Shown here: one piece after another, positions 7,213 to 11,755 of the stretch | How the letters are laid out: the number at the start of each line of letters is the position of its first letter | How positions within the stretch are numbered: position 1 is the stretch's first letter | Source of the DNA: Dehalococcoidales bacterium | GTDB taxonomy: Bacteria; Chloroflexota; Dehalococcoidia; Dehalococcoidales; RBG-16-60-22 | DNA length: 11,755 nucleotides | Direction: 5' to 3' | NCBI GenBank assembly: GCA_023135135.1 | Contig: JAGLTT010000013.1 | Coordinates: 1 to 11,755 of the forward strand | Made by a program: the position numbers and the translations under genes | The notes under the pieces: generated by a model | The model's database searches: none | Seen by the model: the letters and a program-made list of their open reading frames with translations, nothing else | What the model was told of the DNA's origin: nothing

Positions 7213-8367
7213 ATGAGAAAATTGAGACAGCTAAATAACTCATATGGCGATGACAAGGTAATCGACGCCTGTTCGATATTCGGCGCCATGAACACGGCAG
7301 GCAAGAGGTTCTCCGGGGAGAGCGTCATTAAAGCAATCGCCAATATGCACGACCGCGGCAACGGACTGGGCGGGGGCTTTGCGGTCTACGGGCTGTACCC
7401 CGAGCATGCCGACCTCTATGCCTTTCACATCATGTTTCTCGATAATGAAGATAAACAGGAGACGGAAGGATTCCTGCGTAAACATTTTACCGTTATCCGC
7501 GAGGAAGAAGTACCCACCCGGTCGACACCGGCGATTAAGAATACCCCGCTGGTATGGCGTTACTTCCTTGACGTACCGCAAAATCTACCGGAAAACCTGT
7601 CAATTGACGATTATATCGTGGCTAAGGTCATGGAGATTAATACCGGTAGCAATAATAGTTTCGTTTTCTCCAGCGGCAAGAATATGGCCGTATTTAAGGG
7701 CGTGGGTTACCCCGAAGAGCTGGCTGAATATTTCCGACTGGAAGAGTACCAGGGCTATCTCTGGACGGCGCACGGAAGGTTCCCGACCAATACGGTGGCC
7801 TGGTGGGGAGGGGCGCACCCGTTTTCGATTCTGGACTGGACGGTGATTCATAACGGTGAAATTTCATCCTACGGAATAAACCGCCGCTTCCTGGAGCAGT
7901 ACGGTTACCAGTGCACTATGCAGACCGATACCGAAGTTATCGCCTATGCTGTCGACCTGCTCATGCGCCAGCACAACCTGCCTTTGGAAATAACCGCTAA
8001 AGTAGTGGCGGCCCCCTTCTGGGACGAAATCGAACGCATGCCGCCGAAAGAGCAAAAACTCATGCGGGCATTACGTCAGGTATACAGCAGCCTGCTCCTG
8101 AACGGGCCTTTCGCCGTAATTATCGCCCGTCAGGGCGAAATGATAGGCCTGACCGACCGTATCCGGCTGCGACCGCTGACCGTCGGAGAGAAGGGCGATA
8201 TGCTGTACCTTTCATCCGAGGAGTCGGCCATACGCCTGATATGCCCCGACCTGGACAAGTCCTGGATTCCCATGGGCGGCGAGCCGGTTATCGGCAGGCT
8301 TAAAAAAGGGCCCAATCCACAAGATATCACTGGCGGGGAGAGGCTATCAGCCGGGAAGTCGGTATAA
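7213..8367 (+). CDS. Glutamate synthase glutaminase subunit (class II amidotransferase domain, GltB1 type)
   Basis: Releases ammonia from glutamine and channels it to the synthase subunit. The 384-residue protein equals the N-terminal domain of bacterial GltB as a separate gene. The nucleophile is C20 in DACSIFG; the glutamine-binding HGRFPTN motif is at 187-193 (R189), the oxyanion-hole HNGEI at 213-217 (N214, G215), and D239 in QTDTE. Class II enzymes need the cysteine at the N-terminus, so the first 19 residues must be a propeptide removed after synthesis, as in full-length GltB. AGGGG seven bases before the ATG supports the start. The gene is four bases from the synthase subunit gene. A split three-gene layout also occurs in N-methylglutamate synthase (MgsABC), a possible alternative, but the amt and regulator context favours glutamate synthase. 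Confidence 0.9.
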   Translation: MRKLRQLNNSYGDDKVIDACSIFGAMNTAGKRFSGESVIKAIANMHDRGNGLGGGFAVYGLYPEHADLYAFHIMFLDNEDKQETEGFLRKHFTVIREEEVPTRSTPAIKNTPLVWRYFLDVPQNLPENLSIDDYIVAKVMEINTGSNNSFVFSSGKNMAVFKGVGYPEELAEYFRLEEYQGYLWTAHGRFPTNTVAWWGGAHPFSILDWTVIHNGEISSYGINRRFLEQYGYQCTMQTDTEVIAYAVDLLMRQHNLPLEITAKVVAAPFWDEIERMPPKEQKLMRALRQVYSSLLLNGPFAVIIARQGEMIGLTDRIRLRPLTVGEKGDMLYLSSEESAIRLICPDLDKSWIPMGGEPVIGRLKKGPNPQDITGGERLSAGKSV

Positions 8368-8371
8368 CACT

Positions 8372-9877
8372 ATGAAGACTTATAGCGCACCAAAATTTAA
8401 AATAATCAGAGACAAAGACCGGTGTATTCAGTGTCAGGTCTGTGTCAACCAGTGCAGCTTTGGCGCATACTACTACGACGAAGAAGACGACGAGGTAAGG
8501 AGCTGCGAGGAAAATTGTGTCGGTTGCCAGCGCTGCGTGCTCTTTTGCCCTACCCGAGCATTAACTATCAGCTATAGCCCGCTGGACTACCGCGGGAACC
8601 AGAACTGGCGTCCTGAAATTATCGAGGACATTAACAAGCAGGCGGAGACCGGGGGCATGCTATTGACCGGCATGGGCGATGACAAGGGCCAGCGCATCTA
8701 CTGGGACCATCTGGTGCTCAATGCCAGCCAGGTGACCAATCCCTCCATCGACCCCCTGCGCGAGCCGATGGAACTGGCCACTTACCTGGGGCGTAAACCC
8801 GATAAACTGGAAGTCGAACCGGACTCGTTCGATTTAAAAACGCAGTTATCGCCGCTGGTCAGGGTGGAAGTGCCGGTGCTGTTCGCCGCCATGTCTTACG
8901 GGGCGGTAAGCCTCAACGTACATGAATCCCTCGCCCGGGCGGCGACTGAGATGGGTACACTGTGGAACACCGGCGAGGGCGGGCTTCACCCCAGCCTGTA
9001 TAAATACGGAGACAACACTATCGTTCAGGTGGCATCAGGGCGTTTCGGCGTTCATGCCGATTACCTCGATGCGGCCAGAGTAGTTGAAATAAAAATTGGA
9101 CAGGGAGCCAAGCCGGGTATCGGCGGGCACCTGCCCGGAGAGAAAGTAAGCGCGGACGTATCACTCACGCGGATGATTCCCGAAGGAACCGACGCCATCT
9201 CACCGGCGCCGCAGCACGATATCTACTCCATTGAGGACCTGGCCCAGCTTATCTACGCCCTGAAGGAAGCGACCAACTATACCAAGCCGATATCGGTAAA
9301 GATAGCCGCCGTCCATAATTCCGCCGCCATCGCCAGCGGCATCGTTAGAGGCGGCGCCGATATCGTCGTCCTCGACGGACTGCGCGGGGCTACCGGCGCC
9401 GCGCCCAAGGTCATCCGCGATAACGTCGGTATTCCCATCGAACTGGCCCTGGCCTCGGTGGACAGCCGGCTGAGGCAGGAAGGCATACGCAATCAGGCCT
9501 CCGTCGTGGTCTCGGGCGGTATCAGGAACAGCGGCGACGTAGCCAAGGCAATCGCCCTCGGGGCCGACGCCGTGTATATCGGGACGGCCGCGCTCATTGC
9601 GCTGGGCTGCCATGTCTGCCAGCAGTGCCATACCGGCAAGTGCGCCTGGGGCATCTGTACTACCGACCTGCGCCTGACCAAGAGAATCAACCCGGAAATC
9701 GGCGCCCGCCGGGCGGCCAACCTGCTCCGCGGCTGGAGCCTCGAACTGAAAGATATACTCGGTGGACTCGGCGTTAACGCCCTGGAGAGCCTGCGGGGGA
9801 ACCGCCTGCACCTCAGGGGCGTCGGCCTGACCGATACCGAGCTCGAAATTCTGGGCGTAAGAATGGCAGGAAGCTAG
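8372..9877 (+). CDS. gltB: Glutamate synthase central FMN subunit with fused ferredoxin domain (GltB2 type)
   Basis: Synthase core that reduces the 2-iminoglutarate formed from 2-oxoglutarate and ammonia. Residues 1-65 form a two-cluster ferredoxin domain: C18/21/24/28 and C49/52/55/59, plus an extra C45. From about 90 to the end is an FMN-binding barrel, with MSYGAVS (174-180), GEGG (201-204), a glycine-rich DGLRGATGAAP (335-345) and a phosphate-binding SGGIRNSGD (381-389). Cysteines 413, 419 and 424 have the six- and five-residue spacing of the [3Fe-4S] ligands in GltB; C416 and C429 are additional. The fused ferredoxin is typical of archaeal-style glutamate synthases and gives a docking route for electrons from the upstream redox genes. 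The ribosome site is weak (GGGAAG thirteen bases away), so translation is probably coupled to the gene four bases upstream. Confidence 0.92.
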   Translation: MKTYSAPKFKIIRDKDRCIQCQVCVNQCSFGAYYYDEEDDEVRSCEENCVGCQRCVLFCPTRALTISYSPLDYRGNQNWRPEIIEDINKQAETGGMLLTGMGDDKGQRIYWDHLVLNASQVTNPSIDPLREPMELATYLGRKPDKLEVEPDSFDLKTQLSPLVRVEVPVLFAAMSYGAVSLNVHESLARAATEMGTLWNTGEGGLHPSLYKYGDNTIVQVASGRFGVHADYLDAARVVEIKIGQGAKPGIGGHLPGEKVSADVSLTRMIPEGTDAISPAPQHDIYSIEDLAQLIYALKEATNYTKPISVKIAAVHNSAAIASGIVRGGADIVVLDGLRGATGAAPKVIRDNVGIPIELALASVDSRLRQEGIRNQASVVVSGGIRNSGDVAKAIALGADAVYIGTAALIALGCHVCQQCHTGKCAWGICTTDLRLTKRINPEIGARRAANLLRGWSLELKDILGGLGVNALESLRGNRLHLRGVGLTDTELEILGVRMAGS

Positions 9878-9878
9878 C

Positions 9879-10637
9879 ATGACAGATACCAGAGATTCCG
9901 CAGTTAATATCGATGCCAGCGGTGTCCATTACCGGGAGCTCAATACCAGGCTCAGGGATATTGTTACCAACAGCAACCGTAAGATTGAGCTGCGTAATGT
10001 TTACGGGCAGAGATACATCGGCACCAACCTGAACAAGCCGATAGAGATTGAAATTTTCGGCACGCCGGGCAACGACCTCGGCGCCTTCATGAACGGGCCG
10101 AGGATTATCGTCCACGGCAATGCCCAGGACGGCTGCGGCAATACCATGAACGAAGGCGAGATAATCGTTCACGGCCATGCCGGGGATACGGTTGGTCTAT
10201 CGGCCAGGGGCGGTAAGATATTTATCCGCGAAGATGTCGGCTACCGTGCCGGCATCCACATGAAAGAGTACCGGGACAAGATGCCGGTAATTGTCATCGG
10301 TGGCACCGCCCAGGACTTCTTCGGCGAGTACATGGCCGGAGGCACCCTGGTTCTCCTCGGCCTGAATCTCGGCGAAGGGAAAAACCACAAGGCCAGGTTC
10401 ATCGGCACCGGCATGCATGGCGGCGTTATTTACGTACGGGGGAATGTCGAGGAATACCAGTTGGGTAAGGAAGTGGGCGTTACCGACCTCGAAGAAAGCG
10501 ACCGCGCCGCTCTCCGCAGGTATGTCAGCGAGTTCGCCGGATATTTCGACTTTGATGCGGATGATATACTGTCGCACAAATTTATAAAACTGTACCCGCG
10601 CTGGCTCCGGCCCTACGGAAGGCTTTACACCTATTAG
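9879..10637 (+). CDS. Glutamate synthase GXGXG-domain subunit (GltB3 type)
   Basis: Structural subunit equal to the C-terminal right-handed beta-helix domain of GltB. In the 252-residue product the repeated glycine pattern is clear from about 61 to 190, for example GNDLGAFMNG (64-73), HGNAQDGCGNTM (79-90), HGHAGDTVG (98-106) and GGTAQDFFGEYMAGG (141-155). In whole GltB this domain holds the ammonia tunnel region and glutaminase and synthase domains together; here it would assemble with the two preceding products. It starts one base after the synthase stop, with AGGAAG five bases before the ATG. The last 55 residues after the helix are charged and tyrosine-rich, as is common in stand-alone versions. 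Formylmethanofuran dehydrogenase subunit C has the same fold, but nothing else of that complex is here. Confidence 0.9.
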   Translation: MTDTRDSAVNIDASGVHYRELNTRLRDIVTNSNRKIELRNVYGQRYIGTNLNKPIEIEIFGTPGNDLGAFMNGPRIIVHGNAQDGCGNTMNEGEIIVHGHAGDTVGLSARGGKIFIREDVGYRAGIHMKEYRDKMPVIVIGGTAQDFFGEYMAGGTLVLLGLNLGEGKNHKARFIGTGMHGGVIYVRGNVEEYQLGKEVGVTDLEESDRAALRRYVSEFAGYFDFDADDILSHKFIKLYPRWLRPYGRLYTY

Positions 10638-10655: not shown

Positions 10656-11330
10656 ATGACACACGTTTTAATAATCGCGCGGGACGATGAGACTAAATCA
10701 AAGCTCCGCAAAAGTTTGGCTCATTATGACCTTTCATGCTCCTTCACCTCTTACAGCAATGGGGTATGGGAGGCCGTAAACAGCGGTAAACCCGATATAC
10801 TCCTGTTTGAAATGGACGAAAATCCGCCGGCTTCCGAGATTTGGGAACTTACCAGAAGAGTGAAAAGGACGAGAAACCTGCCGGTAATCGCGCTCATCCC
10901 GGGAGAGATGCCCGGCAGCATCGACAGTCTCCTCGATATTGGCGATTTTGTTGCCGCCCCTTATAATTCCACTGAGCTGATTTTGAGGATAAACCGCCTC
11001 CTCCACAGAACCGAAAGCACCGAAAGCAAAGAGCAAATAAAACATAACGACCTGAAAATAGATCTCATCACGTGCGAGGTAACCGTAGAAGGTAAAATAG
11101 TCGAACTGACCTTTAAGGAATATGAACTGCTCAAGCTGCTGGCGGGCAACCCGGGACGCGTCTACACGCGTGACGCCCTGCTGGATAAAATCTGGGGCTA
11201 TGACTACTTCGGCGGGGACCGCACCGTGGACGTGCATATACGCCGACTCCGCAGTAAAATAGAAGACCCCGACCATACCTTCATTGAAACGGTACGCAAC
11301 ATCGGCTACCGTTTCATCAAAAATTCGTAG
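10656..11330 (+). CDS. OmpR/PhoB-type regulator with degenerate receiver domain, GlnR-like
   Basis: DNA-binding regulator of 224 residues: receiver domain about 1-118 and winged-helix domain about 128-222, with recognition helix segment DRTVDVHIRRLRSKI (188-202) typical of PhoB/OmpR proteins. The receiver pocket is broken. The phospho-accepting Asp is Glu at 52 (LLFEM), the conserved Thr/Ser is Ile at 81 and the conserved Lys is Ala at 101; only the early acidic pair D10-D11 remains. Phosphorylation is therefore unlikely, and no sensor kinase gene is nearby. Actinobacterial GlnR, the nitrogen master regulator, is likewise a phosphorylation-independent OmpR protein. GGAG seven bases before the ATG supports the start. 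It is the last gene of the glutamate synthase operon, 18 bases after it, and directly upstream of amt, so nitrogen control is a strong inference. Confidence 0.88.
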   Translation: MTHVLIIARDDETKSKLRKSLAHYDLSCSFTSYSNGVWEAVNSGKPDILLFEMDENPPASEIWELTRRVKRTRNLPVIALIPGEMPGSIDSLLDIGDFVAAPYNSTELILRINRLLHRTESTESKEQIKHNDLKIDLITCEVTVEGKIVELTFKEYELLKLLAGNPGRVYTRDALLDKIWGYDYFGGDRTVDVHIRRLRSKIEDPDHTFIETVRNIGYRFIKNS

Positions 11331-11344
11331 CCAATCCCCGGCGT

Positions 11345-11382
11345 GTAACACAGATTTAACCCCCCTGTAATATATTCGTAAC
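11345..11382 (+). promoter_or_regulatory. Four-fold 11-bp-phased operator-like array upstream of amt
   Basis: Four pentamers occur at exact 11-base intervals: GTAAC (11345), TTAAC (11356), GTAAT (11367) and GTAAC (11378), each separated by six bases. Eleven-base direct repeats are the usual target geometry of PhoB/OmpR-family regulators, and GTnAC-n6-GaAAC-n6 is the actinobacterial GlnR box form. The array lies between the regulator gene and amt and ends just before the predicted -10 box, so it is a likely activator site for the neighbouring regulator. Confidence 0.65.
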
Positions 11383-11392
11383 ATTAGCCCGC

Positions 11393-11398
11393 TATCCT
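11393..11398 (+). promoter_or_regulatory. Candidate -10 box of an activator-dependent amt promoter
   Basis: TATCCT matches four of six consensus bases. The position where a -35 box should lie (about 11370-11375) is a poor match and is occupied by the repeat array. The last pentamer ends ten bases before this box, the geometry of PhoB-activated promoters where the operator replaces the -35 element. Confidence 0.4.
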
Positions 11399-11407
11399 TA
11401 TTGGTAG

Positions 11408-11414
11408 AAGGAGG
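11408..11414 (+). promoter_or_regulatory. Strong ribosome binding site of amt
   Basis: AAGGAGG stands six bases before the ATG at 11421. It is the strongest Shine-Dalgarno match in the window and fixes the amt start. Confidence 0.8.
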
Positions 11415-11420
11415 ATAGCC

Positions 11421-11755
11421 ATGAACCTGAGAGGCAGTGTAACGAAGATAGCCATAAGAGGGGTATTGACCTTTGGCCTTGTTTGCCTGATATGGCTGGC
11501 GTGGGCAGGGACGGGGAGTGTAGCCCTGGCGGCTGACCCCACCGGATTGGGGGGGACAGCGGATACGGCGATAGACTACGTGTGGATACTGGTCTGTGCC
11601 TTCCTGGTGATGTTTATGCAGCCAGGGTTTGCTCTCCTAGAAGCTGGCTTCTGTCGGGCTAAAAATGTTGCCAACTTAATGACTAAAAACCTGATGGATT
11701 TCGCTATTGGCTCGATAGCTTTTTTCTTCGTAGGCTACGCCATAATGATGGGTGG
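11421..11755 (+). CDS. amt: Ammonium transporter, N-terminal part (cut by the window edge)
   Basis: Membrane channel protein for ammonium uptake. Only the first 111 codons are present and the frame is open to the edge. Residues 1-37 form a signal peptide (basic start, hydrophobic core about 13-29, probable cleavage after ALA at 37), common in bacterial Amt proteins. The first mature membrane helix, about 53-72, runs into the family hallmark MQPGFALLEAGFCRAKN (66-82), followed by LMTKNLMDFAIGS (86-98) and a second helix reaching the window end. The usual Ala in MQAGF is Pro here. It has its own strong ribosome site and probably its own promoter, 90 bases after the regulator gene. A P-II protein gene (glnK/glnB) often follows amt and would be expected just outside the window. 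Confidence 0.92.
   Translation, partial: MNLRGSVTKIAIRGVLTFGLVCLIWLAWAGTGSVALAADPTGLGGTADTAIDYVWILVCAFLVMFMQPGFALLEAGFCRAKNVANLMTKNLMDFAIGSIAFFFVGYAIMMG

Follow-up and report, generated by a model that had tools for sequence, protein, structure and literature searches.

Regulators of the PhoB/PhoP type act at Pho boxes, which are 11-bp direct repeats placed about 10 nt upstream of the −10 element. The other closely related system is that of the actinobacterial regulator GlnR, whose boxes are described as 5-bp sites separated by 6-bp gaps, with the motif gTnAc-n6-GaAAc and often the arrangement a-b-a-b (PMC10704036). For M. smegmatis, the GlnR consensus is given as Gn2AC-n6-GnAACA, with a spacing that matters (PMC3662644). 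In the GlnR–DNA complex, four DNA-binding domains lie head to tail together with a receiver tetramer, and the receiver Asp, of the D50 type, is kept for dimerization (PMC10704036).

The DNA analyzed here, called the window, is a stretch of 11,755 nucleotides from a genome assembly that is 55% complete. On its forward strand, an array of four pentamers lies between the gene for an OmpR-family regulator (10656–11330) and amt (from 11421), and we consider it very likely that this is a four-half-site operator of the GlnR type, through which the neighboring orphan regulator activates amt. The half-sites are GTAAC (a1, 11345–11349), TTAAC (b1, 11356–11360), GTAAT (a2, 11367–11371), and GTAAC followed by A (b2, 11378–11382); the steps between all four are exactly 11 bp. 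The original prediction had every one of these coordinates right, and the chain indeed ends at four units, with no fifth in phase. It had also placed half-site 4 ten bases before a −10-like box and judged the canonical −35 position poor. Both points held: exactly 10 nt separate the half-site from TATCCT (11393–11398), and a consensus scan of positions 11200–11500 found neither a sigma-70 promoter pair, there being no −35 match, nor a terminator. A ribosome-binding-site-like AAGGAGG was recognized by eye at 11408–11414. Read as pairs, half-sites 1-2 (AC-n9-AC) and 3-4 (AT-n9-AC) both fit the GlnR box as given in PMC3662644, and pair 2-3 reads AC-n9-AT. An inverted repeat, GCTATCCT/AGGATAGC (11391–11419), covers the −10 and the ribosome site and has an identical counterpart at another locus (L007); its fold z-score is a modest −1.55, a stability matched or exceeded by 13 of 200 shuffles, and transcription probably does not include its upstream arm.

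The genes around the array, all on the forward strand, are largely recognizable from profile matches. The amt gene (11421–11755) runs off the window and matches Ammonium_transp with 64 bits and TIGR00836 with 74.8 bits, the latter under the family cut-off, as the window contains just a fragment of the gene. The regulator has 224 amino acids and a degenerate receiver, and upstream of it lie split glutamate synthase genes (7213–10637), in the parts GATase (7213–8367), Glu_synthase (8372–9877), and GXGXG (9879–10637). This three-ORF glutamate synthase adjoins an NADH-oxidoreductase-like gene. A similar glutamate synthase gene order was seen in the regions of three other genomes (G128, G079, and G043), with a hisF-like gene inserted in the last two.

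Relatives of the regulator were found in 20 of the 31 genomes of the family (E up to 1e-30), one of these, G007, having a paralog-like match only, and the nearest relative in the named genomes (L030) is 88% identical. At E up to 1e-45, matches occurred in 313 of the 393 genomes of the class, a figure that probably includes paralogs and hence is no ortholog count. The regions downstream of 51 relatives, which are mutually related and therefore not independent draws, the window being one of them, were scanned for the pentamers [GT][AT]AA[CT] without preselecting arrays and compared with first-order Markov simulations. Pairs at 11 bp numbered 73 (simulated mean, 1.18), those at 22 bp 45 (1.28), and those at 33 bp 22 (1.34), the largest simulated value being 5 at each distance. 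Lesser excesses at 26 bp (8), 27 bp (6), and 37 bp (8) were also beyond every simulation. These 51 regions came from 54 loci, of which L193, L195, and L198 were removed because they duplicate L014, L019, and L022; L013 and L018 (contig ends) and L025–L029 (taken as paralogs) had been excluded earlier, and the class-level loci in the set are the best 30 only. A KTAAY pattern of four units, in which two mismatches were allowed and which was picked after the array was seen, matched once in the window and in none of 200 dinucleotide shuffles. On this result and the 11-bp periodicity downstream of the 51 relatives, a chance origin of the array was rejected.

Persistence of the array beside the regulator was the check proposed originally, and at least two in-phase units were present in 31 of the 51 regions, at least three in 24, and at least four in 16. 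The other 20 regions had no array directly after the regulator; in six of them (L194, L196, L199, L202, L204, and L211), an array stands 1.5–1.7 kb from it. At these six loci and at L208, the gene after the regulator was identified by eye as asparagine-synthase- or class-II-amidotransferase-like, not amt. The setting of the array to the promoter also recurs: of 36 chains, 27 have a TAnnnT 10 nt beyond their last unit, and four have it at 9 nt.

In the proposed a-b-a-b arrangement, two dimers of the adjacent regulator would sit on the same face of the DNA in head-to-tail order. The bound regulator would cover the place of the missing −35, its last half-site lying 10 nt before the −10, and would recruit RNA polymerase to amt. 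We infer the binding to this operator, the direction of control, and nitrogen as the signal; activation is favored because of the setting of the last half-site to the −10 and the absence of a −35. The same regulator could instead bind the array and repress amt, or switch between activation and repression with nitrogen. Half-site 4 is close enough to the −10 to suggest this, and PMC3662644 reports GlnR of M. smegmatis as both activator and repressor, but a 10-nt gap that recurs and a −35 that is missing would suit an activator standing in for that element, and such a repressing or switching role seems improbable.

Genome-wide, the arrays were searched for with a strict pattern of three units, 10 nt, and TAnnnT, the reversed pattern serving as control. 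There were 29 matches in 21 of the 31 family genomes (control, 0) and 137 in 98 of the 393 class genomes (control, 6); when the −10 part was left out, three units alone gave 65 matches in 22 of the 31 family genomes (control, 6). Among the 137 class arrays, at least 59 share a contig with a regulator match, at least 46 lie within 3 kb of one, and at least 28 within 300 bp. The analysis of targets covered part of the family and class arrays; after those with identical flanks were merged, it comprised 43 arrays whose middle unit begins with G (G-first) and 12 with T (T-first), 55 in all; merging by another key left 44 and 12 for the unit statistics. This G/T split, which separates nitrogen-type from Pho-like arrays by the unit corresponding to half-site 3, was defined after the data were seen.

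All 44 G-first arrays also had G in the last unit, which the search did not require. A fourth in-phase unit upstream, likewise not searched for, was present in 33 of the 44, whereas no other distance tried gave more than 8 of 44. The b1 unit is TTAAC or GTAAC, GTAAT predominates as the third unit (38 of 44 with T), the last is GAAAC or GAAAT in 21 of 44, and the A trailing it carries 1.15 bits, so that the rough consensus reads GTAAC-n6-TTAAC-n6-GTAAT-n6-G(T/A)AACA-n9-TAnnnT. Three other genomes belong to the window's genus; two of them, both incomplete assemblies, yielded neither the regulator (E up to 1e-30) nor a G-first array.

The target of each array was called as the first tblastn match among seven reference proteins within 1.6 kb. 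Gene names in general come from inspected translations; amt, glnA, PII, and nifH were also assigned by tblastn, with references chosen in the same way. Besides amt, arrays were found upstream of glnA and PII, for which a scan had been suggested with the array's discovery, and of nifH. Among the 43 distinct G-first arrays, the first reference gene was amt in 32, glnA in six, PII and nifH in one each, and a regulator-like gene in two, and the one remaining array has only 97 nt of sequence before the contig ends. Forty of the 43 thus lead to a nitrogen-assimilation gene, as expected of GlnR boxes, with another reading frame intervening between array and target in a few cases (for example, at L112). 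A further seven in-class arrays, found in the search of the phylum, all precede amt or glnA.

These targets bear on a different reading of the array, as a Pho box bound by a phosphate-responsive paralog of the PhoP/PhoB type. TTAAC-like repeats at 11 bp resemble the Pho boxes of Bacillus PhoP, many close relatives of the regulator are named PhoP by JGI, and the T-first arrays have the same spacing, with pstS as first reference gene in three of 12. Yet pstS, the sole phosphate gene among the references, comes first in none of the 43 G-first arrays, of which 40 precede amt, glnA, PII, or nifH. The T-first arrays lead to pstS (3), a regulator-like gene (2), no reference (6), or amt (1), and the last of these (L185) is a G-first array in a register shifted by one unit. 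The last unit differs as well, being G-first in all 44 G-first arrays versus T-first in 10 of the 12 others. Because the targets split by array type, the Pho-box reading was set aside, and we regard it as quite unlikely.

The T-first arrays themselves, with TTAAC or TTAAT, stand before or near pstS, methylglyoxal-synthase-like genes, and coiled-coil genes (L144, L156, L170, L183, L190, L110, L111, and L114), all but pstS named by eye, and this array type is perhaps a Pho-type operator. The split of targets may not be clean, since a methylglyoxal synthase of Dehalococcoides is reported in PMC4340931 to be induced by nitrogen limitation. Of the two models named originally, PhoB and GlnR, we prefer the GlnR model because the clade of the regulator groups with GlnR and because the T-first arrays near pstS form a type of their own. 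DNA could be bent by TAA steps that recur about once per helical turn, but specific base identities (G in the middle and last units, the informative trailing A), restricted targets, and the many arrays near the regulator gene leave almost no room for a curvature or UP-like promoter element, made of phased A/T pentamers and read by RNA polymerase alone.

As a GlnR-type code, the array was also looked for beyond the class. In Chloroflexota outside Dehalococcoidia, 12 strict matches occurred in 10 of 346 genomes, against one for the control, and for the 11 arrays examined no match to amt, glnA, PII, or nifH turned up within 1.6 kb. The idea of a phylum-wide nitrogen code was dropped on these grounds, and at this strictness the nitrogen link within Chloroflexota is seen in Dehalococcoidia only. 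Arrays outside the class (L247–L250 and L258–L264) are G-first and above the control, and they may be real. Four matches with one mismatch (L226, L233, L236, and L237) had no recognized nitrogen gene downstream.

Within the class, reductive dehalogenase matches (E up to 1e-3) number 20 to 53 per genome in 11 genomes of a Dehalococcoides-type family (f2); matches over the family cut-off were present in all 11 and in none of 14 controls. An array match with at most one mismatch was found in 10 of the 11, the exception being G043, with one control match over the 21 genomes searched. Arrays precede amt or glnA in the regions examined in G128, G098, G079, and G043, and nifH of G098 has one directly upstream. 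In G128, the order of the glutamate synthase genes, the regulator, and amt is that of the window, followed by PII and glnA. Looser three-unit arrays lie there both in the interval from the regulator to amt and upstream of glnA, where the array reads GTAAC-n6-GAAAC-n6-GAAAT-n6-GAAAT, with 10 nt to TAGACT. A strict array in the same genome is followed by a second regulator-like gene (L241:15645–16361), molybdate-transport-like genes, and the nif cluster.

Arrays were also found in Omnitrophota, with 17 matches in all eight genomes, which had been chosen through their regulator relatives, and none for the control. Downstream lies glnA in five cases, amt in one, a rubredoxin-like gene in seven, and another gene in four; in five of the seven, amt comes about 1 kb beyond the rubredoxin-like gene, and in two the available sequence has no amt. 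Eleven of the 17 thus have amt or glnA ahead of them. Gaps of 9 and of 10 nt to the −10 both occur, as the pattern permitted. At seven of the 17 (L266, L267, L268, L271, L272, L273, and L281), the rubredoxin-like gene has 57–60 residues and is followed mostly by a secreted-looking protein. Across Dehalococcoidia and in some Omnitrophota, the same pair of regulator and operator would constitute a nitrogen regulon, with amt, glnA, and PII as members and nifH added in one genome. On these comparisons of sequence, the proposal of a four-half-site operator for the adjacent regulator appears well supported by the arrays beside the regulator in relatives, their position before nitrogen genes, and the recurrent 10-nt gap to the −10.

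Like GlnR, the regulator of the window has a C-terminal DNA-binding domain of the ordinary OmpR type (Trans_reg_C, 99 bits), and the profile search gave no receiver-domain match for it. In a 22-row alignment, read by eye against the canonical receiver positions, it has Glu at the usual phospho-Asp position and Ala at the usual Lys. The Asp column over these 22 relatives, window included, holds E in nine, D in eight, A in two, and T, Q, and G in one each, with Asp in all five Omnitrophota rows, and the Lys column holds K in two only (L011 and L022). The receiver thus appears to lack a conventional phosphorylation site, as in GlnR, and carries Glu where GlnR keeps an Asp for dimerization. Because the usual phosphorylation residues have been lost, the activity of the regulator would probably be set by some other nitrogen signal, for which protein partners or metabolites would be expected.

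Its relationship to GlnR is indicated by sequence matches and by a tree. The best PDB sequence matches are the GlnR chains 8hig, 8hml, and 8hih, by a modest margin (GlnR, 167 bits; RegX3, 152 bits; 10 to 30 bits over RegX3 and MtrA), and for a paralog from the same genome (L002) the best match is MtrA. The Pfam model GlnR_1st (cut-off, 27 bits) had no match in the window protein at E up to 1; at that threshold it matched 13 of the 22 relatives, as did the ordinary receiver model. When 10 relatives were scanned singly, six matched GlnR_1st, and only one, from Omnitrophota (L038, 27.5 bits), passed the cut-off.

In the 51-row tree, which has a midpoint root and few outgroups, 17 Dehalococcoidia, five Omnitrophota, and six actinobacterial GlnR sequences group at 99/98, sharing descent apart from the other OmpR regulators; the 23 rows outside the group are eight paralogs, 10 Firmicutes or Calditrichota sequences, and five solved regulators. 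Each of the six GlnR sequences has the GlnR_1st domain and was taken from among the relatives of chain 8hig. This placement could be an artifact, as the GlnR branch is long (1.78) and the six rows were chosen by likeness to one solved chain. An AlphaFold model of the regulator (mean pLDDT, 80; pTM, 0.58) matches many OmpR regulators about equally, with MtrA, PhoP, and KdpE chains ranking above GlnR, and the fold comparison was set aside as a means of assignment, failing as it does to separate GlnR from the others.

For nitrogen control in Dehalococcoidia, this analysis supplies a regulator, an operator code, and a set of targets, and it suggests that a receiver without a phosphosite can still run a nitrogen regulon. 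Since most of the genomes with reductive dehalogenases carry array-like sites, dechlorinators that can be cultivated offer a way to test the idea. We give an even chance to a broader proposal, namely that GlnR-type nitrogen control did not originate as an invention of Actinomycetota but is older and independent of phosphorylation, with one operator code in Dehalococcoidia, Omnitrophota, and Actinomycetota, and that it forms the master nitrogen switch of Dehalococcoidia, including the nif genes of organohalide-respiring diazotrophs, without a working receiver phosphosite. In the open-licence literature, covered in part through titles and abstract openings and with subscription papers mostly outside its scope, no nitrogen regulator or GlnR-type control was described for Dehalococcoidia or Omnitrophota, which is weak evidence that the system is new as a form of GlnR-type control. 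The only paper there to contain both GlnR and Dehalococcoides mentions each solely among its references, and passages of Dehalococcoides papers likewise gave no name of a nitrogen regulator.

Among the known systems, MtrA and RegX3 have the same general fold as the window regulator but lie outside the tree group that contains GlnR. PhoB/PhoP-type regulators, with their Pho boxes, share the OmpR-family DNA-binding domain; they differ from the present system, which has nitrogen-gene targets, a window receiver without phosphorylation residues, and, in the same class, a separate T-first array type linked to pstS. The closest likeness is to actinobacterial GlnR, likewise an orphan OmpR-family regulator with 5-bp sites, 6-bp gaps, up to four sites in a row, and amt and glnA as targets, as described in PMC10704036, PMC3662644, and PMC5826061. 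Unlike that system, the one described here occurs in Dehalococcoidia and Omnitrophota; the receiver Asp of GlnR is replaced by Glu in the window and is Asp in only eight of the 22 relatives, and the window protein has no GlnR_1st match. The third unit of its operator is usually GTAAT, with TTAAC or GTAAC as b1, and nifH is, in one genome, among its targets.
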